A model generated the notes under the pieces. It saw only the letters and a program-made list of their open reading frames with translations, ran no database searches and was not told where the DNA came from. DNA of 55,027 nucleotides from Ruminococcus sp. Lineage in GTDB: Bacteria; Bacillota; Clostridia; Oscillospirales; Acutalibacteraceae. The stretch lies in NCBI GenBank assembly GCA_017457955.1, contig JAFTGL010000003.1, positions 1-55,027 of the forward strand. The letters run 5' to 3'. The position numbers and the translations under genes were made by a program. Each line of letters opens with the position of its first letter. Position 1 is the first letter of the stretch. Shown here in pieces: positions 1,013 to 43,846 of this stretch.

Positions 1013-1477
1013 ATGTGTTTTATCTGCGACAGGATCGCTATGATACAGCGGGGTGAGAACCCTTACTTTGTCAGGGAGCTGGAAACAGGCTATGTCGTCA
1101 TCGGCGACCACCAGCATTTCAAGGGATATACGTTGTTTTTATGCAAGGAGCATGTCACGGAGCTGCATCACCTTGACCGTGAGACGAAAGTCAGATTTCT
1201 TGAAGAAATGTCACAGGTCGCAGAGTCTGTGCAAAGAGCTTTCGGTGCGGAGAAGATGAACTGCGAACTTCTCGGCAACGGCGAAGCACATGTGCACTGG
1301 CATATCTTTCCGCGCAGGGCAGGGGATATCGGCGACTGCGGCAACAACGGCAAGGGTCCCGTATGGTGGTATCCTATGGAAAAGATGTATGATGACGCAA
1401 AGCGTCCTTCGGTGGACGAATTGGAGCACATGAGATCCCGCCTTGCCGCCGCGCTGGATGAAACTGTACATTCATAA
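1013..1477 (+). CDS. HIT family nucleotide hydrolase/transferase
   Basis: The protein carries the histidine triad HVHWHIFPR (HxHxHxxP) near residues 99-107, with an N-terminal CFIC pair that often binds zinc in this family. HIT proteins hydrolyse nucleotide phosphoramidates or dinucleoside polyphosphates, the middle or last His acting as nucleophile. It follows rqcP by 19 bp and is probably co-transcribed. ATG 1013 is chosen because the family begins near MCFIC; an in-frame GTG at 1004 is possible and neither has a strong SD. Its position between rqcP and yabP is an insertion relative to Bacillus. The exact substrate cannot be told. Confidence 0.85.
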   Translation: MCFICDRIAMIQRGENPYFVRELETGYVVIGDHQHFKGYTLFLCKEHVTELHHLDRETKVRFLEEMSQVAESVQRAFGAEKMNCELLGNGEAHVHWHIFPRRAGDIGDCGNNGKGPVWWYPMEKMYDDAKRPSVDELEHMRSRLAAALDETVHS

Positions 1478-1500
1478 TCAGAAAAGCCCCCTCATATAAT
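1472..1500 (+). promoter_or_regulatory. Candidate sigma-E promoter of yabPQ
   Basis: TCATAAT at 1472-1478 matches the sigma-E -35 (KMATATT, 6/7) and CATATAAT at 1493-1500 matches the -10 (CATACAMT, 7/8), with a 14 bp spacer. B. subtilis yabPQ is known to be sigma-E dependent. The -35 overlaps the stop codon of the HIT gene and the -10 lies in the 5' arm of the hairpin at 1483-1531. Confidence 0.6.
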
Positions 1501-1531
1501 CTATTGATAAAGGTTATATGGGGGTATCTTT
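1483..1531 (+). promoter_or_regulatory. Hairpin sequestering the yabP Shine-Dalgarno
   Basis: CATATAA (1493-1499) pairs with TTATATG (1514-1520) and CCCC (1488-1491) with GGGG (1521-1524); AAAG (1483-1486) can extend it with CTTT (1528-1531). The 3' arm is the G-rich SD of yabP (1520-1524, 7 nt before ATG). There is no long T run, so it is more an SD lock than a full terminator. Transcription from the sigma-E promoter would begin in the loop and leave the SD free. Confidence 0.6.
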
Positions 1532-1801
1532 ATGCCTGAAAATATGGGAAAACGACCGCATCTGCTCACGCTGGATAACCGCAGGCTGCTGACGCTCACG
1601 GGGGTAGAGGATGTGCCGGGCTTTGACGAGCAGACCATCAACGTAAAGCTCAGCGACGCGACGCTGGTGGTGAAGGGATCGTCCCTGCATATCAGTAAGC
1701 TGAATCTGGAGAGTGGCGACGTAGTGATCGACGGGAACATCAGCTCTTTGCAGTATCTCGGTGCGTCATCAGGCTCTCTGCGCTCCCGTCTGTTCCGCTG
1801 A
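1532..1801 (+). CDS. yabP: Sporulation protein YabP
   Basis: An 89-residue protein of the YabP/YqfC family: N-terminal basic stretch, then HLLTLDNRRLLTLTGVEDV and a beta-rich core ending SSLQYLG. In Bacillus YabP and YabQ are made in the mother cell and are needed for spore cortex formation; the molecular action is not settled. ATG 1532 follows a G-rich SD that is part of a hairpin. The stop overlaps the yabQ start by one base (TGATG), so the two are translationally coupled. Assignment rests on sequence and on the conserved gene order. Confidence 0.88.
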   Translation: MPENMGKRPHLLTLDNRRLLTLTGVEDVPGFDEQTINVKLSDATLVVKGSSLHISKLNLESGDVVIDGNISSLQYLGASSGSLRSRLFR

Positions 1802-2394
1802 TGGGCTTCTCGCTGTCTGACCAGACCGCCTATTTTCTGTGGTCACTGGTATTGGGCGCGGCGCTTGCCGTTCTGTATGACGTCGTCAGAGCAGTCCGCA
1901 TGACCGTGCGCGCGGGCAGGGTGCACGTGATGATCTCCGATATCCTGTTCTTCACTGTGTGCGGCGTGATCACCTCGCTGTTCGCGCTGCCGTTCAACAA
2001 GGGCGACGTCAGGGCGTTCATCCTCTTCGGCGAGGCGGTCGGATTTTTGGCATATCGGCTGACGCTGGGCGCGATTATGGGAAAGGTGTATGCTTTTTTT
2101 GCGCGCGTCATACGTGGTTTTGTACAAAAAACACGAAAACTTTTAGAAAAAATTTTCAATTTCCTATTGAAAGCCATAGTCAGTATAGTGTATAATGTAG
2201 GTGTAGTAATAGATAAGTCGCGAAAAAAGGCGGCTGAAAACAAAAAGAAGAAACGTGCCGCGAAAGCAAAAGCAAAGCGACAGCGGCGGTTATATAAGGA
2301 AAGACAAAATGAGCAAAAGAAGAAACACCAAAAAGCCGGACACCGCGGCAAAGACAGCGCGCGAAAGAAAAGACGAGGCGCAGGGCGAAGGTAG
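1801..2394 (+). CDS. yabQ: Spore cortex biosynthesis membrane protein YabQ
   Basis: A 197-residue protein with about four hydrophobic segments (near residues 8-30, 43-63, 70-92, 118-140) followed by a highly basic Lys/Arg tail of ~55 residues. The N-terminal FLWSLVLGAALAVLYDVVRA is typical of YabQ, an integral protein of the outer forespore membrane required for cortex assembly in Bacillus. The start overlaps the yabP stop. The 3' end overlaps divIC by 86 bp in another frame. The long basic tail probably stays in the mother-cell cytoplasm (inference). Expected to be sigma-E controlled through the yabP promoter. Confidence 0.85.
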   Translation: MGFSLSDQTAYFLWSLVLGAALAVLYDVVRAVRMTVRAGRVHVMISDILFFTVCGVITSLFALPFNKGDVRAFILFGEAVGFLAYRLTLGAIMGKVYAFFARVIRGFVQKTRKLLEKIFNFLLKAIVSIVYNVGVVIDKSRKKAAENKKKKRAAKAKAKRQRRLYKERQNEQKKKHQKAGHRGKDSARKKRRGAGRR

Positions 2395-2686
2395 GAGAGT
2401 GCTCTCCCGCCCCGCTTTTGTGCTGATCGCGCTGGTCGCGGTGGCTTTTTTGATATATTCCATGGTATCGATCATCGGTATCCAGGCGCAGATCCGTGAG
2501 CGGAAAGCGGAGCTGGACGACCTCAAGGAGCAGATCACGGTACAGGAGATCAAAAACGAGGATATTCAAAAGCTGTATGATTCGACCGGTTCGGACTTTT
2601 CGGCGCTTGCGGAACAGATCGCGCGCGATGATCTCGATTATATCAAAGAGGGCGAGAGAGTCTTTGTCAACGTAGCCGGCGATTAA
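2309..2686 (+). CDS. divIC: Septum formation initiator, DivIC/FtsB family
   Basis: A 125-residue bitopic protein: basic cytoplasmic tail (residues 1-33), one membrane span (~34-58, FVLIALVAVAFLIYSM) and an extracytoplasmic coiled coil with heptads (RERKAELDDLKEQI). DivIC pairs with FtsL and DivIB/FtsQ in the divisome to activate septal wall synthesis. AAGGA at 2297-2301 eight bases before ATG 2309 decides the start, which lies inside the 3' part of yabQ. Position between yabQ and the S1 gene is the conserved one for divIC. Confidence 0.85.
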   Translation: MSKRRNTKKPDTAAKTARERKDEAQGEGRRVLSRPAFVLIALVAVAFLIYSMVSIIGIQAQIRERKAELDDLKEQITVQEIKNEDIQKLYDSTGSDFSALAEQIARDDLDYIKEGERVFVNVAGD

Positions 2687-2742
2687 AAAGCATATTACCG
2701 AGTTATCGGTCGTATAGATAAGATTAAGGGGTTAAAATCTGA

Positions 2743-3231
2743 ATGTCATTAAGTGTAGGCACAATTGTAAACGGTAAGGTAACAGGCATCACCAATTTCG
2801 GCGCGTTTGTCGAGACCGAGGACGGCTCCAAAGGGATGATCCATATCTCTGAGGTATCCCGCTCCTATGTCGAGGATATCAAGTCGGTCCTCAAGGTGGG
2901 ACAGGCAGTGACCGTGAAGGTGATCTCGGTTGCCGATGACGGTAAGATCGCGCTGTCATTAAAACAGCTCGAAAAAGCGGATGACTCTAAGAAGCCCGCG
3001 GCAAACCGCAAGCCGCGGACGCGCGAACCCCAAAAACCGAGAAAGAAGTATGAGCCGGCTCCTCCGGTCACCTCACCCGGTGACTTTGAGTGGCAGAGCT
3101 CTTCGGCGGGCGGCTCCTTCGAGGATATGATGAGTAAGTTCAAGCGCACCTCGGAGGATAAGATGTCCGACCTCAAACGTGGCGAGAGCCGCGGCTATTC
3201 CCGCAGGGGGAACGGCGGCGGTCGTAAATAA
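2743..3231 (+). CDS. yabR: S1 domain RNA-binding protein, YabR-like
   Basis: A 162-residue protein with one S1 OB-fold domain at residues 1-76 (G-K-V-T-G-I-T-N-F-G-A-F-V and GMIHISEVS motifs, closing KIALSLKQL). It is followed by a charged, proline-rich, probably disordered tail ending in an Arg/Gly patch. It resembles B. subtilis YabR, also downstream of divIC, and the general stress S1 protein YugI. It should bind RNA or ribosomes in the cytoplasm; the precise role is unknown. The GGGG SD at 2729-2732 is somewhat far from the ATG. Confidence 0.85.
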   Translation: MSLSVGTIVNGKVTGITNFGAFVETEDGSKGMIHISEVSRSYVEDIKSVLKVGQAVTVKVISVADDGKIALSLKQLEKADDSKKPAANRKPRTREPQKPRKKYEPAPPVTSPGDFEWQSSSAGGSFEDMMSKFKRTSEDKMSDLKRGESRGYSRRGNGGGRK

Positions 3232-3253
3232 ATTATTGCTGGGAGGCATTACT

Positions 3254-3787
3254 ATGAAGATTACCTATACTGAGCGCAAGGTTAATCTGAGGGACAACTT
3301 CAAACAGAGAGTTGAGAAGAAGCTTTCAAAATTTGACAAGATCTTCTCCGATGATGCTCAGGCGTTTGTTGTCGTTACCCTTGATAAAAACTCTCAGACC
3401 GTAGAAATCACCATCCGTGATAAGTCTATGGTCTACAGAGCTGAGAAAACAATGCCTGAGATGAATGACGCGGTAGATAAGTGTGTCGATGTCCTCGGCC
3501 GTCAGCTGAGAAAGAATAAGGCGAAGCTCGAGAAACGCCTCAGACAGGGCTCTCTCGAGGAGCTTGTCGCTCCGGTGGACGAGCCTGTTGAGGAAGAGGA
3601 CTACACCATCGTGCGCACCAAGGAGATCCCCGTAAAGCCGATTTCGGTCGACGAGGCGATCCTGCAGATGAATATGGTAGGGCACAAGTTCTATGTATTC
3701 ACCAACGCCGAGACCAATGAGGTGAACGTGGTCTACCTGCGCGACGACGGCAAGTACGGCTTACTGGTACCGACTGTCGGAGAATGA
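3254..3787 (+). CDS. hpf: Long-form ribosome hibernation promoting factor
   Basis: A 177-residue protein with the N-terminal HPF/YfiA fold (residues 1-105, MKITYTERKVNLRDNFKQRV) and the C-terminal dimerisation domain (about 120-177, KPISVDEAILQMNMVGHKFYVF) that defines long HPF. In Firmicutes long HPF dimerises 70S ribosomes into 100S particles in stationary phase and blocks the mRNA channel. GGGAGG at 3241-3246 decides the start at 3254; an upstream in-frame ATG lies inside the S1 gene and has no SD. A strong terminator follows. Confidence 0.93.
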   Translation: MKITYTERKVNLRDNFKQRVEKKLSKFDKIFSDDAQAFVVVTLDKNSQTVEITIRDKSMVYRAEKTMPEMNDAVDKCVDVLGRQLRKNKAKLEKRLRQGSLEELVAPVDEPVEEEDYTIVRTKEIPVKPISVDEAILQMNMVGHKFYVFTNAETNEVNVVYLRDDGKYGLLVPTVGE

Positions 3788-3821
3788 TTTTCCGATAGAG
3801 AATTAAGAGAAGCATAACAAC

Positions 3822-3856
3822 AAGCGGACAGCGTTTCTGCTGTCCGCTTACTTTTT
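3822..3856 (+). terminator. Terminator after hpf
   Basis: AAGCGGACAGC (3822-3832) and GCTGTCCGCTT (3839-3849) form a perfect 11 bp stem with a 6 nt loop, followed by ACTTTTT. Confidence 0.93.
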
Positions 3857-3894
3857 AAGATAAAGATCGTTTTCCGCGAATTGGAGATGGTAGT

Positions 3895-5004
3895 ATGGAA
3901 TTTGTCGCGCCCTGCCTGTTGGGCCTGGAGGGGCTTGCCGCCAACGATTTAAAGTTCAAAGGGATAGAGAACGTCCGTGCCGAAAACGGCAGAGTGCTGT
4001 TCAGCGGGGACGAAACGACGCTGATACGCGCTAACCTCTGCTCAAGCCTGTGCGCAAGGATCGGGATTTTGCTTGCCGAATTTGAAGCGCGGGATTTTGA
4101 TACATTGTTTGAAGGCGTCAAGGCAGTCGACTGGAGCCGTTACATCGGGGAGCGCGACGCTTTTCCCGTTAAGGGCAACAGCCTCGATTCCGTGCTGACG
4201 TCCATTCCCGCTTGCCAGAAAATCATCAAAAAAGCGGTCGTTGAAAAACTCAAGGCGCATTATCATACCTCGTGGTTTGAAGAGGACGGCGGTGTGCACC
4301 AGATCCAGTTCCGTATCTTCAAAAACCGTGTGACCATCATGCTGGATACAACAGGATCTGCGCTGAATAAGCGCGGCTATCGGGAGCTGTCGGGCGGCGC
4401 GCCGATCAAAGAGACCCTCGCCGCGGCGATGGCGGAGCTCAGTCGGATACGCTCCAATCATACGGTGATCGACCCCTTCTGCGGCAGCGGTACGATTCTG
4501 ATCGAAGCGGCGAGAAAGGCGCTGCGTATCATGCCCGGTATCGACCGCGGCTTTGCGTTTGAAAGCTGGTCACAGATCGATCCTGTGTTGATCGAGACCG
4601 AACGGCAGAGGGCGAGAGACGAAGAACTCCGTGACGCGGAATTTATTGCCTACGGTTATGATATTGATGACGAATCGCTTCAGATCGCGCGCCGCAACGC
4701 GGAGCTTGGCAGGGTCGCTGGCAGGATCGTTTTTGAAAAGCGTGATATCCGGGATTATGCCGAGTCCTTTGAGCGGGCGAGTATCATCACCAACCCGCCC
4801 TACGGCGAACGCATGCTGGATGTGCAGGAGGCAAGGGCGCTGTATCAGGTGATGGGCAGGGCATTTGAAAAGAAGCCGTATCACTCATATACCGTTATCT
4901 CGCCCGACGAGCAGTTCGAGCGCTGTTTCGGCAGAGAAGCGGATAAACGCCGCAAGCTCTACAACGGCACATTGCGGTGTAATGTATTTATGTTTTACAA
5001 ATAA
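3895..5004 (+). CDS. THUMP-domain class I SAM-dependent rRNA methyltransferase (RlmL N-like, YpsC)
   Basis: A 369-residue protein with an N-terminal ferredoxin-like/THUMP region (about 1-155) and a Rossmann methyltransferase domain carrying DPFCGSGT (~194) for SAM binding and the N6/N2-type motif NPPYGERM (~302). This is the layout of the 23S rRNA guanine-N2 methyltransferase family (the RlmL N-terminal half; B. subtilis YpsC). The expected product is a methylated guanine in 23S rRNA, but the position cannot be read from sequence. The ATG follows GGAG at 3882-3885. It stands alone between a terminator and the next promoter. Confidence 0.85.
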   Translation: MEFVAPCLLGLEGLAANDLKFKGIENVRAENGRVLFSGDETTLIRANLCSSLCARIGILLAEFEARDFDTLFEGVKAVDWSRYIGERDAFPVKGNSLDSVLTSIPACQKIIKKAVVEKLKAHYHTSWFEEDGGVHQIQFRIFKNRVTIMLDTTGSALNKRGYRELSGGAPIKETLAAAMAELSRIRSNHTVIDPFCGSGTILIEAARKALRIMPGIDRGFAFESWSQIDPVLIETERQRARDEELRDAEFIAYGYDIDDESLQIARRNAELGRVAGRIVFEKRDIRDYAESFERASIITNPPYGERMLDVQEARALYQVMGRAFEKKPYHSYTVISPDEQFERCFGREADKRRKLYNGTLRCNVFMFYK

Positions 5005-5033
5005 TTCTGTTTTAGAATAATAATCCCTCTAAT

Positions 5034-5062
5034 TTGACATTTAGCGTAAAATACACTATTAT
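5034..5062 (+). promoter_or_regulatory. Sigma-A promoter of the orphan binding-protein gene
   Basis: TTGACA at 5034-5039 and TATTAT at 5057-5062 with 17 bp spacing, 51 bp before the start. Confidence 0.75.
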
Positions 5063-5113
5063 ATAAGCGACAGCAAATTCATTGAGGCGCTTTACGCTTC
5101 CAAGGAGGTTTGC

Positions 5114-6235
5114 ATGAAGAAAAATTTATTGATTACCCTTATGGTGATTCTGATTATCGCAGTTTTGGGCGCGGTCATCTATATCACCGTTTTCTCGGCA
5201 GGAAACATCCGCGGCGACGACAGTACGGTCGCGACAAACGACAGCGCCTTGCCGACTACCGCGGAAAATGAAACGCTCTACAGTGAGAGCTTCAAGGTCG
5301 GCGTGATACAGACGGGCTTAGGCAGCGCCAGCAAAGACTGCTACGGCGGTTTTATGATGGAACTTGACGAACGTCAGCTGATGAACAATCTCGAAATCGT
5401 CTATGTCGTAGAGGATAACGAGGATCTCTGCCGCCAGAAGATCAAGGAGCTGGTCGACGACGGCTGTGACGTTCTGTATACGATCGGGCGTTTTGCCTCT
5501 GAGTCCGCCGCGCAGATCACGACAGATATCCCGATCGTTTTCGGCGCCGTGAACAGTCCGGATGAAGTCGGTCTGGTTGAGAGCAACGAGGCGCCCGGCG
5601 GCAACGTGACCGGTGTGTCGAGCTACACTCCCTGCTTTGAACAGATCGATCTGATCAATATTCTGATGCCGCAGGCAAAAAAGGTCGCGGCGTTGTACAG
5701 TGCGACCGATGAAGACGCCGTGTTGCAGGGTATTATTGCGGCGCGTGAGGCGGAGAACATCGGGCTCAGCTGTACCCAGTATCCGATCGAGGATAAAAAA
5801 GCGCTGGAAAGCACCCTTACCAAGATCAAAGATGAGAAGTTCGACGTTATCTATATTCCCGTGGACAAATTCCTCAGCTCCAATATCGCGACGATCACCG
5901 AGTTTTCGTATGAGAACAAGATACCTGTTATCTGCGGCGACGAAGCTACTTTGGCGCAGGGAGCGCTGGCTACCAGCGAGATCAACTATGAGTCCATCGG
6001 CAGAAAGGCTGCCGGCATGGTGTGCGATATCCTTTTTGAGAAAAAGGACCCCGCGACATTATCGGTTATGTACAAGCATGACTGCACCAACCTCGTCAAC
6101 AAGGCTGTGAGGGATAAGCTGGGGCTGGAGATTCCTGCGACCGCTTTGGGCGAGATCGAGCTGTGGGAGACTCCCACCGAGCCGCCGACAGAAGCCCCCG
6201 CTCCGACCGCGGCGCCCACAGAGAAAGAAGAATGA
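5114..6235 (+). CDS. Membrane-anchored ABC-type substrate-binding protein (TrpX/ABC_sub_bind family)
   Basis: A 373-residue protein with an uncleaved-looking N-terminal membrane span (residues 4-28) and no lipobox cysteine. A ~300-residue periplasmic-binding fold of the TrpX/ABC_sub_bind family follows (FKVGVIQTGLGSAS, IPIVFGAVNSPDEV, GGNVTGVSSY). It is clearly related to the TrpX-like lipoprotein at 33745-34788. It ends in a Pro/Thr/Glu tail (PTEPPTEAPAPT). No ATPase or permease gene is adjacent: it lies between its own promoter and terminator, so it is either an orphan partner of the transporter at 31.8-34.8 kb or a membrane sensor. The ligand is unknown; aromatic amino acids are a guess from the family. 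Confidence 0.8.
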   Translation: MKKNLLITLMVILIIAVLGAVIYITVFSAGNIRGDDSTVATNDSALPTTAENETLYSESFKVGVIQTGLGSASKDCYGGFMMELDERQLMNNLEIVYVVEDNEDLCRQKIKELVDDGCDVLYTIGRFASESAAQITTDIPIVFGAVNSPDEVGLVESNEAPGGNVTGVSSYTPCFEQIDLINILMPQAKKVAALYSATDEDAVLQGIIAAREAENIGLSCTQYPIEDKKALESTLTKIKDEKFDVIYIPVDKFLSSNIATITEFSYENKIPVICGDEATLAQGALATSEINYESIGRKAAGMVCDILFEKKDPATLSVMYKHDCTNLVNKAVRDKLGLEIPATALGEIELWETPTEPPTEAPAPTAAPTEKEE

Positions 6236-6241
6236 TTCTTG

Positions 6242-6275
6242 ATACCGCTTGATGAAAGTCAGGCGGTATTTTTTG
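6242..6275 (+). terminator. Terminator after the orphan binding protein
   Basis: ATACCGCTTGA (6242-6252) pairs with TCAGGCGGTAT (6259-6269) including one G-U pair, followed by TTTTTT. Confidence 0.9.
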
Positions 6276-6345
6276 TGTGAACACGCTGACAGGGAGGTGT
6301 TACGGCGATAATTTATTAACATTTTGTGAAATCGCAAATTCCCCC

Positions 6346-6374
6346 TTGATTTTTTCCATATTATGGGTTACAAT
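6346..6374 (+). promoter_or_regulatory. Sigma-A promoter of groESL
   Basis: TTGATT at 6346-6351 and TACAAT at 6369-6374 with 17 bp spacing, ending four bases before the CIRCE operator. Confidence 0.85.
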
Positions 6375-6378
6375 AGAT

Positions 6379-6405
6379 TTAGCACTCGGGGTTCAAGAGT
6401 GCTAA
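6379..6405 (+). promoter_or_regulatory. CIRCE operator (HrcA binding site)
   Basis: TTAGCACTC (6379-6387), nine bases, then GAGTGCTAA (6397-6405): a perfect match to the CIRCE inverted repeat. It overlaps the transcription start of groESL, so the operon should be repressed by HrcA and induced by heat. hrcA itself is not in the window. Confidence 0.98.
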
Positions 6406-6438
6406 TCGATTCGTTTTCATTATTAAGGAGGAATAGAT

Positions 6439-6723
6439 ATGACCATCAAGCCCTTACTCGATAAGGTAGTATTAAAGCTCGACGACGCTGAGGAAACCAC
6501 CGCTTCCGGCATCGTTCTGTCGACCGCTGCTCAGGAGAAGCCCCAGTATGCGAATGTTGTCGCTGTCGGCCCCGGCGGTATGGTAGACGGCAACGAGGTA
6601 CAGATGTACGTCAAGGTAGGCGACAAGGTCATCGCGTCCAAGTACGCGGGCACCGACGTCAAGGTCGACGGCGAGGATTACACCATCGTTCGCCAGAGCG
6701 ATATTCTCGCGATCGTAGAATAA
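6439..6723 (+). CDS. groES: Co-chaperonin GroES
   Basis: A 94-residue protein with the GroES pattern: N-terminal IKPLLDKVVLK, a mobile loop with the GIVL segment (ETTASGIVLST) that docks on GroEL, and a C-terminal IVRQSDILAIVE. The heptamer caps the GroEL folding chamber in the cytoplasm. AAGGAGG at 6425-6431 precedes the ATG. It is the first gene of the CIRCE-controlled operon, 18 bp before groEL. Ordinary in every respect. Confidence 0.97.
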   Translation: MTIKPLLDKVVLKLDDAEETTASGIVLSTAAQEKPQYANVVAVGPGGMVDGNEVQMYVKVGDKVIASKYAGTDVKVDGEDYTIVRQSDILAIVE

Positions 6724-8367
<1,644 letters not shown>

Positions 8368-8387
8368 TATCTATTCAACGCAATAAA

Positions 8388-8421: not shown

Positions 8422-8431
8422 CTATATGTGT

Positions 8432-22971: not shown

Positions 22972-23001
22972 AAGCACATCATATTGTTATGAGGTGCTCA
23001 T

Positions 23002-24249
23002 ATGGAAATGTACCAGTTTATCATCCTTGCCGTTTTCGCCGTTATCGCGATCGCTGTCGGAGTAGCGGCAATTATTATTATTCCGAAAAAGAATAAATCC
23101 AACAGTGAGGAGCTCGCCGCTCTGCGCACGGAGATCGTCAACTCGACTCAGAATTCCGTCAAGAACATGGGTGAGATGATCGCGACCAACCAGCAGAGCT
23201 TTTCCGCTTCCCAAAGCGAGAAGCTCAGCCACTTTGAAGAGCGGTTAAAGACCTTTTCCCTTGAGAATGAACAGAAGCTCGAGAACATCCGCCGCTCGAT
23301 GGAAAACAAGCTCTCCGATATCCGCGAGGATAACAACAAACAGCTGACCGAAATGCGTGCGACCGTTGACGAAAAGCTGCAAAAGACGCTTGAAGAAAAG
23401 ATGAACCAGAGCTTTGCGCTTGTTAGCGAACGGCTCGAACAGGTATATAAGGGACTCGGCGAAATGCAGACGCTTGCCGTCGGCGTAGGCGACCTGAAAA
23501 AGGTGCTGTCTAACGTCAAGACCCGCGGTATCGTGGGTGAGATCCAGCTCGGCAATATCTTGGAAGAGATCCTCAGTCCCGATCAGTATGACACCAACGT
23601 CGCGACCAAGAAAGGCTCGCGCGATGTGGTCGAGTTTGCAATCAAGCTGCCTGCGCGCGACGACGGCTTCATCTACCTGCCGATCGATTCCAAATTCCCC
23701 GGCGACAGCTACGCCGCTCTGCGCGACGCTTATGAAAGCGGCTCCAAGGAGGCTGTGGACGCCGCCGCCAAGACGCTGATCAACACCATCCGCCGCGAGG
23801 CGAAGGACATCCGCGACAAGTATATCGACCCGCCGAATACGACGGAGTTCGCGGTGATGTTCCTGCCGTTCGAGGGCTTATACAGCGAGGTTGTCAACCG
23901 CGGCATGGTAGAGCTGCTGCAGCGGGATTATAAGGTGAACATCGCGGGGCCGTCCACGATGGCGGCGCTGCTGAATTCGATCCAGATGGGCTTCAAGACC
24001 CTTGCCGTCCAGAAGCGCTCTGCCGAGGTCTGGAACCTCTTAGGTTCTGTCAAAAAGGAATTCGAAACCTTCAACACCGTTCTCGTCGCGACCCAGACAA
24101 AGCTCGATCAGGCGAACAAGGAGTTGGATAAGCTCGTCGGCGTCCGCTCCAGACAGATCAGCCGCAAGCTCAGCGCCGTCGAAAGCAACGATACGCCGAT
24201 CGAAGCGTATTTTTCTACTGTAGAAAAATATACCGACGGCGAAAGTTAA
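23002..24249 (+). CDS. rmuC: DNA recombination protein RmuC
   Basis: A 415-residue protein: N-terminal membrane span (residues 4-28), a long coiled coil (~35-150) and the RmuC domain (~165-390) with GEIQLGNILEEIL, YLPIDSKFPGDSY and EFAVMFLPFEGLYSEV. The domain has a restriction-endonuclease-like core; RmuC limits inversions at short repeats, though the mechanism is not known. GAGGTG before ATG 23002. It is followed by sigG with a hairpin terminator in between. Normal length. Confidence 0.92.
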   Translation: MEMYQFIILAVFAVIAIAVGVAAIIIIPKKNKSNSEELAALRTEIVNSTQNSVKNMGEMIATNQQSFSASQSEKLSHFEERLKTFSLENEQKLENIRRSMENKLSDIREDNNKQLTEMRATVDEKLQKTLEEKMNQSFALVSERLEQVYKGLGEMQTLAVGVGDLKKVLSNVKTRGIVGEIQLGNILEEILSPDQYDTNVATKKGSRDVVEFAIKLPARDDGFIYLPIDSKFPGDSYAALRDAYESGSKEAVDAAAKTLINTIRREAKDIRDKYIDPPNTTEFAVMFLPFEGLYSEVVNRGMVELLQRDYKVNIAGPSTMAALLNSIQMGFKTLAVQKRSAEVWNLLGSVKKEFETFNTVLVATQTKLDQANKELDKLVGVRSRQISRKLSAVESNDTPIEAYFSTVEKYTDGES

Positions 24250-24253
24250 ATCA

Positions 24254-24283
24254 GAATGAAAGTCCCCTCTTATGACAATACTA
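24254..24283 (+). promoter_or_regulatory. Candidate sigma-G/sigma-F promoter of sigG
   Basis: GAATG (24254-24258) fits the sigma-G -35 (GMATR) and AATACTA (24277-24283) fits the -10 (CATWMTA, 6/7) with an 18 bp spacer. sigG is known to be made first by sigma-F and then by itself in Bacillus. The -10 lies at the top of the hairpin at 24266-24305. Confidence 0.55.
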
Positions 24284-24312
24284 CTATCAGTATAGTCATG
24301 GGGGGATTTTTT
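24264..24312 (+). terminator. Terminator/SD-locking hairpin between rmuC and sigG
   Basis: ATGAC (24272-24276) pairs with GTCAT (24295-24299), ATAC (24278-24281) with GTAT (24290-24293), and CCTCTT (24266-24271) with the G run 24300-24305 using G-U pairs. T6 follows at 24307-24312 and runs into the TTG start codon. It would end rmuC transcripts and lock the GGGGGG ribosome site of sigG in read-through RNA. A transcript from the sigma-G promoter would start near 24290, lacking the 5' arm. Confidence 0.7.
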
Positions 24313-25093
24313 GCAGTATAACAAAGTCGAGCTGTGCGGGGTGGATACCTCAAAGCTGCCGGTGCTCAAAGAGGAACAGAAGAAAGAACTGCTCCTCAAA
24401 ATGCACAACGGCTCTCCTGCCGAGCGCAAGCGTGCGCGGGAAGAGCTGATCAACGGCAATCTGCGGCTGGTGCTCAGCGTGATCCAGCGGTTTACCGGCA
24501 GGGGAGAGAACCTCGACGATCTGTTTCAGGTCGGGGTCATCGGGCTGATTAAAGCGATCGATAACTTTGACGTCAATTTGGATGTACGTTTCTCCACGTA
24601 CGGGGTGCCGATGATTATGGGTGAGCTGCGCCGCCACCTGCGCGACAGCGGCAGTATCCGTGTATCGCGTTCCATGCGCGACACCGCCTACCATGCGATG
24701 AAGGCGAAGGAGGAGCTGACCGCTCAGCTCAACCGCGAGCCGACTGTGGAGGAGATCGCGAAAGCGCTCGACACCGACAAGGAAAGCGTGGTGCTGGCGC
24801 TCGAGGCGATCGTCGAGCCTGTGTCGCTGTATGAGCCTGTCTTTTCCGACGGCGTCGATACGGTCTATGTGATGGATCAGGTGGGGGACAAGAGCGACGA
24901 CCGCGACTGGCTGGAGGAGATCGCGTTCAAAGAAGCGCTCAAAAAACTCAGCGACCGCGAGAAGCGTATCCTTGCCCTGCGCTACTTCCGCGGAAAAACC
25001 CAGACAGAGGTCGCCGAGGAGATCGGTATCAGTCAGGCGCAGGTCAGCCGTATTGAGAAAGGCGCGATCGACTCGATCAAGCGGGAGCTGTAA
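24311..25093 (+). CDS. sigG: Forespore RNA polymerase sigma factor SigG
   Basis: A 260-residue sigma-70 family protein. The N-terminus NKVELCGVDTSKLPVL is diagnostic of sigma-G. Region 2 (GNLRLVLSVIQRF, DLFQVGVIGLIKAIDNFD, FSTYGVPMIMGELRR) and the region 4 HTH (KTQTEVAEEIGISQAQVSRIEK) are intact. Sigma-G drives late forespore genes such as small acid-soluble proteins. The start is TTG at 24311: the diagnostic N-terminus begins right there and no in-frame ATG exists nearby. The weak start plus the SD hairpin should keep translation low until the right promoter fires. Unlike Bacillus, spoIIGA-sigE is not next to it; rmuC is. Confidence 0.95.
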   Translation: MQYNKVELCGVDTSKLPVLKEEQKKELLLKMHNGSPAERKRAREELINGNLRLVLSVIQRFTGRGENLDDLFQVGVIGLIKAIDNFDVNLDVRFSTYGVPMIMGELRRHLRDSGSIRVSRSMRDTAYHAMKAKEELTAQLNREPTVEEIAKALDTDKESVVLALEAIVEPVSLYEPVFSDGVDTVYVMDQVGDKSDDRDWLEEIAFKEALKKLSDREKRILALRYFRGKTQTEVAEEIGISQAQVSRIEKGAIDSIKREL

Positions 25094-34788: not shown

Positions 34789-34815
34789 TGTAATTACCTT
34801 CCTTTTATTAGTATA

Positions 34816-36607: not shown

Positions 36608-36613
36608 GTTTGC

Positions 36614-36642
36614 ATTTTAGCGCAAGAAAAACCGTTTGTCAA
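36614..36642 (-). promoter_or_regulatory. Sigma-A promoter of the T-box trp operon
   Basis: On the minus strand TTGACA (36642-36637) and TAAAAT (36619-36614) at 17 bp, directly upstream of the T-box leader. Confidence 0.88.
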
Positions 36643-36694
36643 TAGGTTTTGAAAAAAAGTTTAATAAATTACCGCTTTAAAATGCGAAACCGCC

Positions 36695-38461: not shown

Positions 38462-38481
38462 TTTTATCACTTCCTGTCCTC

Positions 38482-38509
38482 ATTATAATACCGCTACCCG
38501 TATTGTCAA
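38482..38509 (-). promoter_or_regulatory. Promoter of the two-HTH regulator with palindromic spacer
   Basis: On the minus strand TTGACA (38509-38504) and TATAAT (38487-38482) with a 16 bp spacer. The spacer begins ATAC and ends GTAT and is symmetric at 12 of 16 positions, so it may be an operator for the regulator itself. Confidence 0.75.
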
Positions 38510-38528
38510 GGCGAAATCGGAGAATCTA

Positions 38529-38557
38529 TTGAATGACAAAATGTGAAGTGTTATGAT
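38529..38557 (+). promoter_or_regulatory. Sigma-A promoter of the small protein and dockerin genes
   Basis: TTGAAT (38529-38534) and TATGAT (38552-38557) at 17 bp, divergent from the regulator promoter. Confidence 0.7.
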
Positions 38558-38597
38558 AAAAATGTAGAACTATGTGCGCAAGAAAGGAGAATGTATC

Positions 38598-38771
38598 ATG
38601 TCAGAACGCAAAGATTCATGGAAGCAGACAGGCGTAGGTTTAGGTCACGCGTTCCGCGGCCTCAGCAAGATGCTGATCAAAACAGGCAAGAAGGGCGTCG
38701 ATAAGGAAGTTTTGTCATGGACGCGACTCTTTTATCCAAAAGTACTTGACAGAGATGAAAACACCATATAA
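38598..38771 (+). CDS. Small conserved protein of unknown function
   Basis: A 57-residue basic protein beginning MSERKDSWKQTGVGLGHAF and continuing RGLSKMLIKTGKKGVDK. Short clostridial proteins starting with a similar WKQTG-GLGHAF pattern are familiar but uncharacterised. The C-terminal ~20 residues (SWTRLFYPKV) look less like those relatives, so a frameshift near the end is possible. AAAGGAG is well placed before ATG 38598. It is 39 bp upstream of the dockerin protein and divergent from the two-HTH regulator. Confidence 0.65.
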   Translation: MSERKDSWKQTGVGLGHAFRGLSKMLIKTGKKGVDKEVLSWTRLFYPKVLDRDENTI

Positions 38772-38810
38772 GATTGGATCAGAGATAGAATAAACAGAAA
38801 GGAGTTATCT

Positions 38811-41387
38811 ATGATGAAATCTTTTGGCAAAAAAACATTGGCTCTGCTGCTGACGGCGGTACTGCTGCTGAGCATGCTGAGTGTGACGGCGTTCGCGGCT
38901 GACGAGAAGCCCGAGCCAACCGTCGGACCCACCGAGGACGCGTTCCTCTACGGCGGCGCGCGCCTTGGGACGTATGAGCCTTCAACATCCCGTACCCGTT
39001 ATATCGTCAATTATAACTACAGCGAGGGCGGCGGTTTGTTGATCAATAATGAAGCCGTTTCCGGCGCGACCTACGACCGTGAGTCCAACACGCTGACGAT
39101 CGACAATGTCCATCAAAAGGCGAACCAGCTCTTCATCTGGTACATGGGCGACGATTTCAAGCTCAATGTCGTGGGTGAGAATGAGTTCGGCATCATCTAT
39201 GTCTACAACTATTTCAATTTCCACAGCACCAGCCTGAACATCATCGGCACCGGTACTCTTACGGTGAATCAGGAGCTGATCAACAAGGATGCTATCCATA
39301 TGGTTGCGGACGGCGACAGCACGATGCACCTCGATATCGCCGATTCCGTGAACGTTCACCTCTATTCCAAGGAGGATGAGAGCGGTGAGCAGGCTCCCGT
39401 TGTCACTCTGCACGAAACGACCATTACTCCCAAAGAGGACGGCGCGATCACCGTGGGCGGCAAGACCGCTCCCGAGGCGCAGAATGAGCAGATCATGTAT
39501 GAGGACTTCGACTATGTCCCTGTTGTCAAGGTTGAGGATCTTGACCGTGACGTTATCCACGGCACACAGCTCAAGTCCAAATCCGATCCCGACGGCGTTT
39601 ACGCGGTGGTGGACGTCATGGACGGCGTGACCTATGTTGTTGTCCGCTTTATCTATGTGGATGAGCTCGGCGCGTGGGCACGCGACCCTGCTTTCGCCGA
39701 AGATTGGTATGCCGGTCAACGTTACACCAAGGCGGAATTAGAAGCCGAATTTGATTACGTCTACGGTCAGGCGCCCACACCCATCCGGTATATGCCCGAG
39801 TACAGGATCGAATCGCGCGGCAATGAAGGTGTGAAGATGCTTAAGGACGACGAACCGGACGCGGTCTATATCGGTCAGCCCACCGGCGCGATCTGGGATT
39901 GGGATGATACCCATCCCTATTCCGGCAACTATGAGATCCACAGGGTCATTTGGGATGACAGCCAGGCGATCTATGTCGAGGATACGAGCTTCAAGGAGAT
40001 CGACCTCGTAGTGGCTGAGCTGGAAGAAAACGGCTTCCATGTTGTTGAGGAGAGCCGCGATGAGCATTTGACGCTCACGGTATGGACCTCCGACGATCCC
40101 GAGGATACTTCCCGCTTTGATATCATGGCTGATTCCATGAAGCGCAAGTCCGACCCCGACGGGCTTTATGTCAAGCTCGGCACCTACGGGTATGAATCCG
40201 GTGATCCCTCTGAGAACGGTATCCTTGTCTATAAAGTACATTATAACCCCGAGACCGACGAGCATTATGTGATGTATAACAGCTATGATGAACCGGAGTG
40301 CTTCTTTGTCTCCTACGGATCGCTCGAAAGCGGCGAGGGCGATTTCTCCTATGAGACCGAGACGGTCACAGAGCCGGTATGGGCGAACTATCTCCCCGAG
40401 GATTACAGCGTCGAATGGGATCTGCACACTGCCGTTCAGCTCAAAAAGAACGAAGATCCCGACGCGGTCTATGCCTATACTCATTCGACGCATTATTTTG
40501 AGGACGATACCACGCGCGAAGAATACGGTCTCATGAAGCTGCAATATAACGAAGCGTTCGGCTGCTATGTCGAGGACACCGATTTTGACGAGATCGTGTT
40601 CTACGATCTGAATGACCTTGCCTCCATGGGCTATGAGATCGTGATGAGCGAACAGCCCCTCGACTTCGTTACCAAGGGCAGCGTCTACTTCAGTGAATAT
40701 CCCGCCTATACCGATAACGACGGCGGCACCTATTATGCCGATTATAGTGAAAATGTTTACAGCTATACGGATGAGGATCTTATCACCATCGGCGGTGAGC
40801 AGTATTATTACGGTACCCCGATGCCTGAGATGAGCACCGACGATCTGAACGATACCATCCATGAGACCCTCTCCGATAACTACAACTATTGGATCTCCGG
40901 TCCCGAGTATCATCATGCCGGCACAGATGTTCCCGCTCCTCAGAATTATACGCTCAGCGGTAAACTGACCAGCTACCTTGATGATGAAGAATATGTGCGG
41001 ATCACCCTGCTGAATACCGAGGAAAACCGGAAAATCAATTATACTACCAGAAGCGGCGACGGTGCCTATCAGATCGATAACGTTCCCGCAGGAACGTATA
41101 CGATGACTGTTGAAAAGAAGAGTCATGTGACCCGCGACTATGAGATCACCGTATCCGGCAACACCGTTCAGGACGTCAAGATCTGCCCGATCGGCGACGT
41201 CAACGGTAACGGCAGAGTACAGTCTAACGACGGTATGTTTGCATACAAGCACGCGCAGGGCGGCGCCGCTGATAAGCTGGAAGGCTATGCGTTCAAGTGC
41301 GCTGACGTCAACAACAACGGCAGAGTACAGTCCAACGATGCAATGGCGATTTATAAGCAGGCATCGGGTGAGCACAATTTGTTCTGA
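38811..41387 (+). CDS. Secreted repeat protein with CnaB-like domain and dockerin
   Basis: An 858-residue exported protein. Signal peptide 1-30 (LLLTAVLLLSMLSVTAFAA). After a ~200-residue beta-rich region come four diverged repeats of ~95-100 residues, each centred on an LK-x-x-x-DPD-(G/A)-VY motif near residues 253, 343, 443 and 542. About 713-785 is a carboxypeptidase-regulatory/CnaB-like beta sandwich (LSGKLTSYL, YQIDNVPAGTYTMTV). The last ~62 residues are a type I dockerin with two Ca-binding DVNGNGRVQSND-like loops (796 onward, and again near 835). It should dock onto a cohesin scaffold at the cell surface. The repeats are unknown; no catalytic motif seen. Confidence 0.85.
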   Translation: MMKSFGKKTLALLLTAVLLLSMLSVTAFAADEKPEPTVGPTEDAFLYGGARLGTYEPSTSRTRYIVNYNYSEGGGLLINNEAVSGATYDRESNTLTIDNVHQKANQLFIWYMGDDFKLNVVGENEFGIIYVYNYFNFHSTSLNIIGTGTLTVNQELINKDAIHMVADGDSTMHLDIADSVNVHLYSKEDESGEQAPVVTLHETTITPKEDGAITVGGKTAPEAQNEQIMYEDFDYVPVVKVEDLDRDVIHGTQLKSKSDPDGVYAVVDVMDGVTYVVVRFIYVDELGAWARDPAFAEDWYAGQRYTKAELEAEFDYVYGQAPTPIRYMPEYRIESRGNEGVKMLKDDEPDAVYIGQPTGAIWDWDDTHPYSGNYEIHRVIWDDSQAIYVEDTSFKEIDLVVAELEENGFHVVEESRDEHLTLTVWTSDDPEDTSRFDIMADSMKRKSDPDGLYVKLGTYGYESGDPSENGILVYKVHYNPETDEHYVMYNSYDEPECFFVSYGSLESGEGDFSYETETVTEPVWANYLPEDYSVEWDLHTAVQLKKNEDPDAVYAYTHSTHYFEDDTTREEYGLMKLQYNEAFGCYVEDTDFDEIVFYDLNDLASMGYEIVMSEQPLDFVTKGSVYFSEYPAYTDNDGGTYYADYSENVYSYTDEDLITIGGEQYYYGTPMPEMSTDDLNDTIHETLSDNYNYWISGPEYHHAGTDVPAPQNYTLSGKLTSYLDDEEYVRITLLNTEENRKINYTTRSGDGAYQIDNVPAGTYTMTVEKKSHVTRDYEITVSGNTVQDVKICPIGDVNGNGRVQSNDGMFAYKHAQGGAADKLEGYAFKCADVNNNGRVQSNDAMAIYKQASGEHNLF

Positions 41388-41465
41388 TATCAGTGCTGCT
41401 GTAAAAACAGACTCAAAAGATCAATGCTTTGTCCTGAGCACATCCGGTCAAAGCGGATAACAGTA

Positions 41466-41504
41466 CCCCCTTATGGCAGAAAAACTGCCATAAGGGGGAT
41501 TTTT
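41466..41504 (+). terminator. Terminator after the dockerin protein
   Basis: CCCCCTTATGGCAG (41466-41479) and CTGCCATAAGGGGG (41485-41498) form a perfect 14 bp stem followed by ATTTTT. The rest of the gap to 41595 holds only a weak CTGTCC/GGACAG hairpin that may end the DUF11 gene on the minus strand. Confidence 0.95.
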
Positions 41505-41595
41505 ACAATGCGGGGCTTTTGCGCTGTCCACACAATTAGGGACAGTCCGCTTTCATGCCCTCGGGCGTCTTAGTTCAGAGGGAAAATATTATTGC

Positions 41596-42477
41596 TTACG
41601 GAGTGTTAAGGTCGCAGACGGTTCCGACGGTGCCTGTCACGACGAGGGCAGCAGAGCCGGGAGTCACCGTCCATGCGCCTGTCGCCGCGTCCTGGGTGAA
41701 GGTCGCGGCAGGGATGGTGATAGCGCTCGGTAAGGTCTCGAATACGCCTGTCGTTTCATTATAGGTGTAGTCGGTGCCGGCGGTGAGCGCTGCGCCGTCC
41801 AGCGTGACGCTGATATCGCTCAGCAGCGGATCGAAGGTGTCGGTGATGACCGCGTTGTCTGCCGCCATTACCTCGGTGTTGCCTGTATTCTGCATCTGGA
41901 AGGTATAGGTCAGCTCACTGTTTTCTGTAACGGGGATGGGTGTGACAGACTTGATCACAGAGAGCAGAGCGGTTTCGACCGCTTCGACGGTTTCGGTCGC
42001 GGTGACGTCGCAGATGCCCGTACCGGTTACGGTCACTGTGTTTTCGATTGCAGCGTTAGTGTCGAGCGGAGCAAATTCATTGACGGTCGCCGAGTAGACG
42101 ATGAGGGTGTTGCTGTCGGCAGGTACGGTGACGCCGCTGATCACCAGACTGTTTGCTGTGCTGACAGCAGGATCGGGCTGCAATTCGCCGTCTTGATAGT
42201 ACTGCACGCTGCCGTCGATATAGGTCAGCGGCTGTACGGTACCGGTGTTGAAGATATACGCACCCAGATCATCGGTGACGGTCAGATCAGTCACGGCGGC
42301 TTCGCCGTTATTGACGATGCTGACCACATAGGTGAGGGTGTCGCCGACGCGGTATTCATCGGCAAGGGCATTTTTGGAAACGCTCAGTACGCCCTCGATC
42401 ACGCCGACCGCGATATTCGACTGTACGGTGTTGCCGTTGTAGCTTAAGGTTGCCTGATTGGTAAATGTTGTAGCCAT
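41596..42477 (-). CDS. DUF11-repeat protein without signal peptide
   Basis: A 293-residue acidic, Thr/Val-rich protein with two DUF11 (Ig-like) units: the first from ~30 (LSVSKNALADEYRVGDTLTYVV), the second from ~165 (LLSVIKSVTPIPVTENSELTYTF). DUF11 repeats normally occur in surface proteins, but here no signal peptide, anchor or sorting motif is seen; the protein starts MATTFTNQATLSYNG. AAAGGAAA before the ATG, with a GGGAGAA/TTCTCCC leader hairpin at 42503-42519. Function unknown; possibly structural, or secreted by a non-classical route. Confidence 0.75.
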   Translation of the reverse strand: MATTFTNQATLSYNGNTVQSNIAVGVIEGVLSVSKNALADEYRVGDTLTYVVSIVNNGEAAVTDLTVTDDLGAYIFNTGTVQPLTYIDGSVQYYQDGELQPDPAVSTANSLVISGVTVPADSNTLIVYSATVNEFAPLDTNAAIENTVTVTGTGICDVTATETVEAVETALLSVIKSVTPIPVTENSELTYTFQMQNTGNTEVMAADNAVITDTFDPLLSDISVTLDGAALTAGTDYTYNETTGVFETLPSAITIPAATFTQDAATGAWTVTPGSAALVVTGTVGTVCDLNTP

Positions 42478-42559
42478 ATTTTTTCCTTTCCTGTGTTTTA
42501 GGGAGAAGGTTTCTCCCGCTTTATCTTATGTGAAAGAAGAAAAGATGTGAAAAAACACT

Positions 42560-42588
42560 TGATTTTTTGAAAGGAATGTGGTAAAGTA
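42560..42588 (+). promoter_or_regulatory. Promoter of tRNA-Val
   Basis: TTGATT (42560-42565) and TAAAGT (42583-42588) at 17 bp, 18 bp before the tRNA. Confidence 0.65.
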
Positions 42589-42606
42589 TATGAGTCAGCC
42601 GAATAC

Positions 42607-42683
42607 GGAGGCTTAGCTCAGCTGGTTAGAGTACCTGCTTGACGTGCAGGGGGTCATTGGTTCGATTCCAATAGTCTCCACCA
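42607..42683 (+). tRNA. tRNA-Val(GAC)
   Basis: The acceptor arms GGAGGCT (42607-42613) and AGTCTCC (42673-42679) pair with one G-U; D-arm GCTCAGCTGGTTAGAGT, anticodon stem CCTGC/GCAGG with loop TTGACGT, so the anticodon is GAC at 42641-42643. The T-loop GGTTCGATTCC is intact and CCA is encoded. It reads GTC and GTT codons. Confidence 0.96.
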
Positions 42684-42687
42684 ATGA

Positions 42688-42723
42688 CAGAACAGGGAGT
42701 ACCATTCGGTACTCCCTGTTCTG
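42688..42723 (+). terminator. Hairpin terminator after tRNA-Val
   Basis: CAGAACAGGGAGTACC and GGTACTCCCTGTTCTG form a perfect 16 bp stem around ATTC. No long T run follows, so it may be leaky. Confidence 0.8.
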
Positions 42724-42802
42724 CACATATGATAATGGGTAACAGAGTATATAACTTTGAAAAAGTTTATACTATCTATGAAGTCAAATAAGGAAGATGT
42801 AT

Positions 42803-43780
42803 ATGGAAATGGTGTTGCAGATCGTGCTGCTGATCGCGGGCTTTGTCGCGCTGATCAAAGGCGCGGATATTTTTGTGGACGGCAGCTCGTCGCTTGCGGC
42901 GATCTTCAAGGTGCCGACGGTCATCATCGGGCTGACCATCGTAGCGCTCGGGACAAGCGCTCCGGAGCTTGCGGTCAGTACTTCTGCGGCGCTGAAAGGA
43001 TCCAACGAGATCGCGCTGAGCAACGTTGTAGGTTCGAACCTGTTTAATCTTTTGATGGTACTCGGCGTGTGCGCCGTGATCAAGCCTGTTCCCATCGAGC
43101 CTGTGATCAAAAAGAGAGATTTCCCATTCTCGATCATCACGACCTTACTGCTGTTCATCGCTTTGGGTATCACAGTAGTCTCCACAGTGGATTTCTCCGC
43201 GGTGCAGATGAGCGATAATGTCTCTGAGGTGAGCCGCATCATCGGGATCATCCTGCTGGTCGTATTCATCGCTTATATCGCTGTTCTGATTATCTCGGCA
43301 AAGAAAAACCCGTCCGAGGAAGAGCCTGTTAAGGTGATGTCGCCGCTGAAAAGCGTTCTTTTCATTATATTGGGCGTTGCGCTGATCATCGCGGGCGGTC
43401 AGTTTGTCGTTAATTCCGCGAAGTATATCGCCGCGGCATTTGGCATGAGCGAAACGCTGATCGGTCTGACGGTCGTCGCTTTCGGTACGTCGCTTCCCGA
43501 GCTGGTGACCTCGATTGTCGCTTCCCGCAAAGGGGAGAACGGTCTGGCTGTCGGCAACGTTGTCGGCTCCAATATCTTCAACCTGCTGTTCATCCTCGGC
43601 GTATCTGCGGCGCTCCATCCGATCCCCGTCAATTTTGCGTCAATGATCGACTTCGCCATCCTGATCGTGACGTCCGCTATCGTATATGTTTTCTCACTGA
43701 CAAAGAAGATCAACCGCTTGGAAGGCATCGCGATGATCCTGATGTACGCCGCGACGGTTGTTTTCGCCGCTCTGAGATAA
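42803..43780 (+). CDS. Calcium/sodium antiporter (CaCA family)
   Basis: A 325-residue protein with about ten spans and the two alpha repeats of the CaCA family: GTSAPELAVS...SNVVGSNLFNLL and GTSLPELVTS...GNVVGSNIFNLL, each holding the ion-binding Glu. It resembles YrbG-type exchangers that export Ca2+ in exchange for Na+ or H+. ATG 42803 is preferred, six bases after AGGAAG; ATG 42797 touches the SD and ATG 42809 is further. The next gene begins 66 bp on, with a terminator hairpin between. Confidence 0.9.
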   Translation: MEMVLQIVLLIAGFVALIKGADIFVDGSSSLAAIFKVPTVIIGLTIVALGTSAPELAVSTSAALKGSNEIALSNVVGSNLFNLLMVLGVCAVIKPVPIEPVIKKRDFPFSIITTLLLFIALGITVVSTVDFSAVQMSDNVSEVSRIIGIILLVVFIAYIAVLIISAKKNPSEEEPVKVMSPLKSVLFIILGVALIIAGGQFVVNSAKYIAAAFGMSETLIGLTVVAFGTSLPELVTSIVASRKGENGLAVGNVVGSNIFNLLFILGVSAALHPIPVNFASMIDFAILIVTSAIVYVFSLTKKINRLEGIAMILMYAATVVFAALR

Positions 43781-43798
43781 ATAATTCTGCCGCAAATT

Positions 43799-43828
43799 GA
43801 ATAACAAATCACGCCTCTGTTCATAATA
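43799..43828 (+). promoter_or_regulatory. Candidate sigma-G/sigma-F promoter of the spoIIQ-like gene
   Basis: GAATA (43799-43803) and CATAATA (43822-43828) with an 18 bp spacer match the sigma-G consensus GMATR-N18-CATWMTA fully; sigma-F recognises similar sites. spoIIQ is a sigma-F gene in Bacillus. The -10 forms the loop of the terminator hairpin at 43811-43841. Confidence 0.7.
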
Positions 43829-43846
43829 GGAACGGAGGCGTTTTTT
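43811..43846 (+). terminator. Terminator of the antiporter gene overlapping the spoIIQ-like SD
   Basis: ACGCCTCTGTTC (43811-43822) pairs with GAACGGAGGCGT (43830-43841) over 12 bp with one U-G, 7 nt loop, then T6 (43841-43846) directly before the ATG. The 3' arm contains the SD GGAGG (43834-43838). A transcript started from the sporulation promoter near 43835 would lack the 5' arm. Confidence 0.88.

Follow-up and report, generated by a model that had tools for sequence, protein, structure and literature searches.

Sporulation-type promoters nested in hairpins over the Shine-Dalgarno sequence: a probable translational firewall between vegetative and sporulation genes in a clostridial family

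Two systems already in print come closest to the arrangement described here. In bacteriophage T4, long early transcripts of gene e fold and hide the Shine-Dalgarno sequence (SD), whereas RNAs from the late promoters just upstream lack the 5' strand of the helix and are well translated, as set out in a review (PMC3014915); soc, 49 and I-TevI are named beside gene e there, and in related phages the promoter is placed in the 5'-strand region. For Bacillus subtilis sigG, a hairpin of 20 or more pairs has been proposed to block translation of read-through RNA and cannot form in RNA from the gene's own promoter, PsigG, according to PMC5942855. Here we compare with these systems three leaders in a 55,027-nucleotide (nt) stretch of Ruminococcus sp. 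(contig JAFTGL010000003.1, positions 1 to 55,027; hereafter the window), those of yabP, sigG and a spoIIQ-like gene, at each of which a hairpin covers the SD and a sporulation-type -10 box lies within the hairpin. We believe, with a probability of roughly three in four, that such promoter-nested hairpins act as a translational firewall at boundaries between vegetative and sporulation genes.

Under this proposal, polymerase reading through from the vegetative gene upstream would make RNA with both arms; with both arms present the hairpin would form and mask the sporulation gene's SD, and a U-tract present in some copies may terminate the read-through transcript as well. The sporulation promoter would be nested in the hairpin, with the 5' arm in or beside the spacer between the -35 and -10 boxes and the -10 box in the arm or loop. 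Since RNA made with sigma-E, sigma-F or sigma-G would begin past the 5' arm, its SD would be free, and stray upstream messages are probably not translated at these genes. We infer the start sites, the read-through RNA and the loss of translation from sequence. The three leaders were read directly and then folded, and their boxes were compared with the B. subtilis sigma consensus sequences. The features, in window positions, are as follows.

Ending at 1477: HIT-domain gene upstream of yabP; its end is overlapped by the yabP -35 box
1472..1500 (+): sigma-E-like promoter of yabP; -35 TCATAAT at 1472-1478, 14-nt spacer, -10-like CATATAAT at 1493-1500
1489..1524 (+): yabP hairpin; 5' arm 1489-1502 with the -10 box, loop 1503-1510, 3' arm 1511-1524
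1520-1524: yabP SD GGGGG, within the hairpin 3' arm; start codon ATG at 1532
1532..1801 (+): yabP; TIGR02892 at 72.5 bits, just under the cut-off of 75.4
1801-2394: yabQ, directly after yabP
23002-24249: rmuC, upstream of sigG
24254..24283 (+): sigma-F/G-like promoter of sigG; GAATG at 24254-24258, 17-nt spacer, CAATACTA at 24276-24283
24258..24312 (+): sigG hairpin of 22 pairs; 5' side 24258-24282, loop 24283-24288, 3' side 24289-24311
24300-24305: sigG SD GGGGGG, in the hairpin 3' side; T6 at 24307-24312, TTG start at 24311
24311..25093 (+): sigG, with TTG start; NF006071 at 401.7 bits, cut-off 372
42797-43780: Na/Ca exchanger gene, upstream of the spoIIQ-like gene
43799..43828 (+): sigma-F/G-like promoter of the spoIIQ-like gene; GAATA at 43799-43803, 18-nt spacer, CATAATA at 43822-43828
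43811..43846 (+): spoIIQ-like hairpin; 5' arm 43811-43822, loop 43823-43829, 3' arm 43830-43841
43834-43838: spoIIQ-like SD GGAGG, in the hairpin 3' arm; T6 at 43841-43846, ATG at 43847
43847..44635 (+): spoIIQ-like M23 peptidase gene; SpoIIQ match of 49.2, far under the family cut-off of 250

Against 200 shuffles of each leader, none folded as well as the yabP hairpin (minimum free energy -21.7, z -3.7) or the sigG hairpin (-25.9, z -4.65), and one folded as well as the spoIIQ-like hairpin (-20.6, z -4.2). The initial annotation of the window had described a hairpin over the SD with a sporulation-type -10 box inside it at all three genes, and the folds bear this out. The boxes that it gave for sigG and the spoIIQ-like gene, of the form GMATR-N18-CATWMTA, are present at the latter, where nearly the whole -10 sits in the loop, but at sigG the best fit is CAATACTA with a spacer of 17 nt, not CATWMTA with one of 18.

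Occlusion was expressed as the free energy needed to unpair the SD, computed for the leader between -70 and +6 (O70) or between -30 and +6 (O30), and leaders with O70 of at least 9 kcal/mol were called strong, a line set after the distributions were known. The sample of the bacterium's own genome comprised the window and 40 other stretches, 821,835 bases or 45% of the 1.83-Mb assembly, and yielded 339 genes that have an SD and an upstream gap of 40 nt or more. Some of the gene starts and neighbours, all assigned by script, are doubtful, and none of the p values is corrected for multiple testing or for genome relatedness. Among the 339 leaders, sigG (18.1 kcal/mol), the spoIIQ-like gene (16.6) and yabP (15.8) hold the first three ranks of O70, with the fourth at 11.5 and the median at 3.4; for the leaders shortened to -30, O30 is 1.2, 5.8 and 3.3, respectively. 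Because these three genes had been selected for their hairpins in the initial annotation, their rank is not independent evidence, and we rejected it as sole proof of enrichment. The fourth-ranked gene is spoIIP with a miscalled start, and its O70 is 7.2 at the corrected start. The further claim that no vegetative gene in the window has this layout is true of the 31 leaders scored; rmuC comes next highest and is not counted, since its occlusion lies wholly within -30. The rmuC SD (window 22972-23004) is paired within a small hairpin (O70 = O30 = 9.8), inside which no promoter was recognised; this is a case of local occlusion at a vegetative gene.

Evidence beyond the window comes from 120 genomes of the same taxonomic family. 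Sets of 30 loci per gene were the best-scoring 30 of about 100 matches rather than random choices; the larger sets, which still do not cover all matches, add the next 40 for sigG, the next 40 for yabP and 20 further spoIIQ-like loci. Loci without a usable start or frame were dropped (five of gpr and one of spoIIQ from the 30-locus sets), as were 3/40 sigG and 1/20 spoIIQ additions from the larger ones; the sigG starts of L289, L304 and L313, which lack an SD and are doubtful, stay in the counts as not strong. Strong occlusion was found in 29/67 sigG, 16/48 spoIIQ-like and 31/70 yabP orthologs. The comparison of sporulation with vegetative genes that had been proposed along with the layout sets these counts against 1/59 for recA and lexA together (recA 0/30; lexA 1/29, one of 30 having been dropped); strong cases are nearly absent from these two vegetative ortholog sets. 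When the orthologous leaders of the three sporulation genes were cut at -30, 0/185 reached 9.

The pairing itself is kept across relatives while the sequences of the arms change. In a swap test, the upstream half of each leader was exchanged for that of another ortholog, with the join 24 or 30 nt before the start. At the 24-nt join the median occlusion fell from 7.6 to 4.5 for sigG (p 7e-6), from 8.2 to 5.4 for the spoIIQ-like gene (p 1.5e-4) and from 8.3 to 4.8 for yabP (p 1.6e-4), and the 30-nt join gave p values of 1.2e-5, 3e-3 and 1.1e-3. No significant effect was seen in 85 neighbour genes (p 0.86), in 336 of the own-genome leaders (p 0.35; L001 and L031 excluded) or in recA (p 0.11). The neighbour set had at first contained 92 genes, nine of them strong, and held sporulation genes (spoIIP after gpr, and the gene after sigG in L028); without L028, L157, L158, L165, L166 and L170 it has 85 genes and three strong cases. 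When eight chosen sigG leaders were aligned, the columns without variation fell mainly in the GAAT and ATACT boxes, and the arms varied. The pairing is conserved at orthologous loci in the family (swap p 7e-6 to 1.6e-4), as the proposal requires, but this does not show in a phylum-wide set of yabP loci, to which we return below.

As a separate observation, the 100-amino-acid gene downstream of sigG in L028 (genome G007), by its look presumably a sporulation gene of the ylmC/ymxH type, has its SD in a hairpin that costs 19.8 kcal/mol to open and carries CATATATA in arm and loop.

An independent case emerged from an unbiased scan of G007, in which evenly spaced stretches totalling 400 kb gave 198 leaders. 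The strongest SD occlusion among them belongs to a gene for a ClpP-like protease, with a sigma-F/G-like promoter inside the hairpin; in the own-genome sample this gene ranks 6th of 339. We take it to be TepA, which in B. subtilis is expressed in the forespore. The TepA passages of PMC12445088 mention no other role than one in precursor protein processing. The layout was found in 19/30 ClpP-like orthologs of a first set (swap p 6.5e-8) and in 35/79 loci collected separately from titled records (swap p 1.3e-9), one of 80 having been dropped and some leaders being identical between the two sets. It is present in Caproiciproducens galactitolivorans, Massiliimalia timonensis and a Ruminococcus flavefaciens strain; in the titled-record set it is absent from Neobittarella massiliensis and Ammonifex thiophilus. 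Of the 79 leaders, one still reaches 9 when cut at -30. The rest of the G007 top ten consists of three small proteins with sigma-70 region 4 matches, a ferritin-like, an M23, an AbiEi-type and a helix-turn-helix protein and two proteins without a Pfam match. The three with region 4 matches occupy ranks 2-4 of 198 (L398:1024-1458; L398:6080-6550, below cut-off; L390:9216-9638), and they look to us like parts of mobile elements.

If the hairpins guard against read-through, they should depend on the upstream neighbour, and they do. For sigG, the spoIIQ-like gene and yabP together, the hairpin is found in 63/131 loci whose upstream gene is co-directional, compared with 6/36 where that gene is divergent (Fisher p 4.5e-4); by gap it is found in 31/46 loci at less than 80 nt and in 15/55 at more than 150 nt. 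Pooling in the first ClpP-like set weakens the effect of direction (68/132 versus 12/42, p 0.007); in the second ClpP-like set alone the counts are 26/49 and 4/20. Ordinary leaders of the own genome are strong in 9/221 co-directional and 3/115 divergent cases. Among ten genes upstream of hairpin-bearing copies, seven are of vegetative type (rmuC three times, an rpoD-type sigma factor, an mfd-type helicase, a phosphopantetheinyl transferase and an S4-domain protein), two have weak DUF2229 matches below the cut-off and one has no match.

The placement of promoter boxes is compatible with the nested arrangement. The geometry set comprised 197 loci of sigG, the spoIIQ-like gene, yabP and the ClpP-like gene, 90 of them strong, and left out 18/70 yabP loci without CATA in the scanned stretch, five of which are strong. 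With boxes picked by best match, the -10 overlaps the hairpin in 88/90 strong cases, and the start predicted from those boxes lies past the 5' arm in 85/90. In 90/90, opening the SD of the predicted short RNA takes under 9 kcal/mol, with gene medians of 0.2-2.6, a test that hairpins of about 6 kcal/mol would also pass. The initial annotation had transcripts starting inside the hairpin with the SD free; these predictions are in line with it, except that the start predicted for the spoIIQ-like gene of the window lies within its SD. Since that predicted start, about 7 nt past the -10, is the second G of the SD, the short spoIIQ-like mRNA would be almost leaderless. A sigma-E score of at least 10 was reached by 23/70 yabP orthologs versus 12/534 leaders of two genome samples, and the sigma-F/G threshold was reached by 41/67 sigG, 32/48 spoIIQ-like and 37/79 ClpP-like loci.

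On the most serious rival reading, the hairpins would be no more than intrinsic terminators belonging to the vegetative genes upstream, overlapping the promoter and SD of the following gene because the space between genes is short; occlusion of the SD would then be a by-product. T6 follows the window hairpins of sigG and the spoIIQ-like gene but not that of yabP, the association with co-directional neighbours and short gaps would be expected of terminators too, and a U-tract, defined as at least five T in the 8 nt after the hairpin, is commoner in strong cases (18/90) than in weak ones with a hairpin (2/92) or in other leaders with a hairpin (13/297). However, 65/90 strong cases have at most three T there, and the direction effect persists without the 25 T-rich cases and the ClpP-like gene (38/95 versus 4/32, p 0.003). 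Furthermore, ordinary co-directional leaders with gaps of 40-80 nt are seldom strong (1/49 in the own genome, 2/28 in G007). We therefore rejected termination as the only function and consider this rival unlikely. Given how few U-tracts there are, and that the direction effect survives their exclusion, hiding of the SD is the common feature and termination a minority addition; of the earlier suggestion that read-through RNA is terminated, only this much stands.

We think it quite improbable that the hairpin is instead a constitutive damper that also limits translation of the sporulation transcript, in the manner of the small ribosome-binding-site hairpin of B. subtilis sigG. PMC5942855 does report that a leader hairpin cuts translation of B. 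subtilis sigG 2-4-fold, but here the predicted short RNAs of the 90 strong cases all fall below 9 kcal/mol, as do the 185 orthologous leaders of the three window genes when cut at -30. Less probable still is a palindrome acting at the DNA level as the operator of a dimeric regulator: the arms do form inverted repeats around the -10 box, but they differ among orthologs in which promoter boxes and SD persist, the layout is common to genes with boxes of different sigma classes, and the swap effect follows pairing rather than sequence identity. Chance complementarity between pyrimidine-rich spacers and purine-rich SDs, which does leave swapped leaders of the three window genes with medians of 4.5-5.4 kcal/mol and at least 9 in 50/348, 54/336 and 37/360, is just as improbable, since natural leaders exceed swapped ones at four genes and neighbour genes, own-genome leaders and recA show no such effect.

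Several results weigh against a translational firewall. The strong hairpin is missing in over half of the orthologs. The sigma-F/G threshold is also reached by 93/535 leaders of two genome samples and by 10/59 of recA and lexA. Among the other G007 leaders 13/197 reach 9, and here too co-directional leaders (11/136) do so more often than divergent ones (2/61). In the first ClpP-like set the hairpin occurs in 6/8 loci with a divergent neighbour versus 10/17 with a co-directional one. spoIIP, which often follows gpr, is strong in 5/28 loci (two of 30 lacking a usable start), with a swap p of 0.19. On the vegetative side, lexA responds slightly to the swap (p 0.0026, medians 3.5 and 3.4), and the lexA gene of L040 (G119), which lies outside the 29 and is one of the three strong cases in the neighbour set, has an O70 of 13.1 and a TATAAT-like box inside the hairpin, possibly a vegetative example of the same layout. 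Finally, in the best 30 yabP loci taken phylum-wide the layout is present in 7/30 and the swap has no effect (p 0.33), even though the upstream gene is co-directional in 29/30. We therefore rejected a phylum-wide layout for yabP, and our claim is limited to the family of the source bacterium.

Even within that family, the layout does not mark every sporulation gene, an idea that spoIVA, gpr, ylbJ and spoIVB led us to reject. spoIVA is strong in 0/30 loci (swap p 0.095), though it is often tightly co-directional with its neighbour; gpr is strong in 1/25 (p 0.76), with a divergent neighbour in 17/25; ylbJ (TIGR02871) in 2/30 (p 0.33), with a divergent neighbour in 22/30; and spoIVB, which has large upstream gaps, in 3/30 (p 0.37). 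The proposal of a general insulation device thus stands in so far as the layout recurs at unrelated genes, with conserved pairing and dependence on the neighbour, but it is not general. SipL, itself the product of a sporulation gene, directly precedes spoIVA in all ten loci scanned, out of 23 with an upstream co-directional frame, which suggests a sipL-spoIVA operon in this family; the SipL gene ranks 21st of the 339 own-genome leaders. A broader statement, that in this clostridial family the promoter spacer becomes the complement of the SD wherever a sporulation unit closely follows a vegetative gene, for sigma-E and sigma-F/G alike and with no need of a terminator, so that the firewall works at the level of the regulon, seems to us evenly balanced between right and wrong.

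How, then, do these leaders relate to the known systems? The present leaders would work in the same way as that of T4 gene e, through a helix, predicted here, that hides the SD in the long form. In T4, however, phage late promoters serve a lysis gene and the effect on translation was measured, whereas here bacterial sporulation-type promoters serve several genes and the effect is predicted. The large hairpin of B. subtilis sigG, with its 20 or more pairs, is matched at the window's sigG by 22 predicted pairs and a predicted transcription start; pairs were counted at that locus, and the 29/67 sigG orthologs were scored by O70 alone. The upstream unit differs, being a sporulation unit, spoIIGA-sigE, in B. 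subtilis and the vegetative-type rmuC in the window, and beyond sigG the layout occurs here also at the spoIIQ-like gene, yabP and the ClpP-like gene. An intrinsic terminator is alike in its hairpin and, in two of the three window cases, the T6; it differs in that most of the present hairpins lack a U-tract and that the next gene's SD forms their 3' arm. Translation of the IS10 and IS50 transposase mRNAs is inhibited by fold-back, in which read-through RNA from outside hides the start region and the element's own transcript does not. That arrangement protects a transposon, whereas here a developmental gene would be guarded.

In the titles and opening lines of abstracts that our searches of an open-access library listed, we recognised the layout only for B. 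subtilis sigG and T4. The device is the same as that of T4 gene e and B. subtilis sigG and so was already in print; the apparent novelty is that it recurs at unrelated sporulation genes whose promoter boxes are of different sigma classes, with the pairing conserved. If our reading is right, unrelated developmental genes make use of a device known from phage T4 and a single Bacillus gene, and the promoter spacer doubles as an anti-SD arm. This would explain in simple terms how sporulation genes can lie a few dozen bases past housekeeping genes without misfiring, and it would supply a rule by which insulated boundaries between genes could be predicted from sequence.

Three minor observations can be added. 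The spoIIQ-like gene follows an rpoD-type sigma gene at 103 nt in L033 (G106) and an mfd-type gene at 59 nt in L048 (G071), with a strong hairpin at each. At G086:C28:75981-77575 the spoIIQ-like gene and sigG adjoin on the same strand, the spoIIQ-like gene first. In the window itself, a gene for a TMEM175-like potassium channel lies at 48056-48649.

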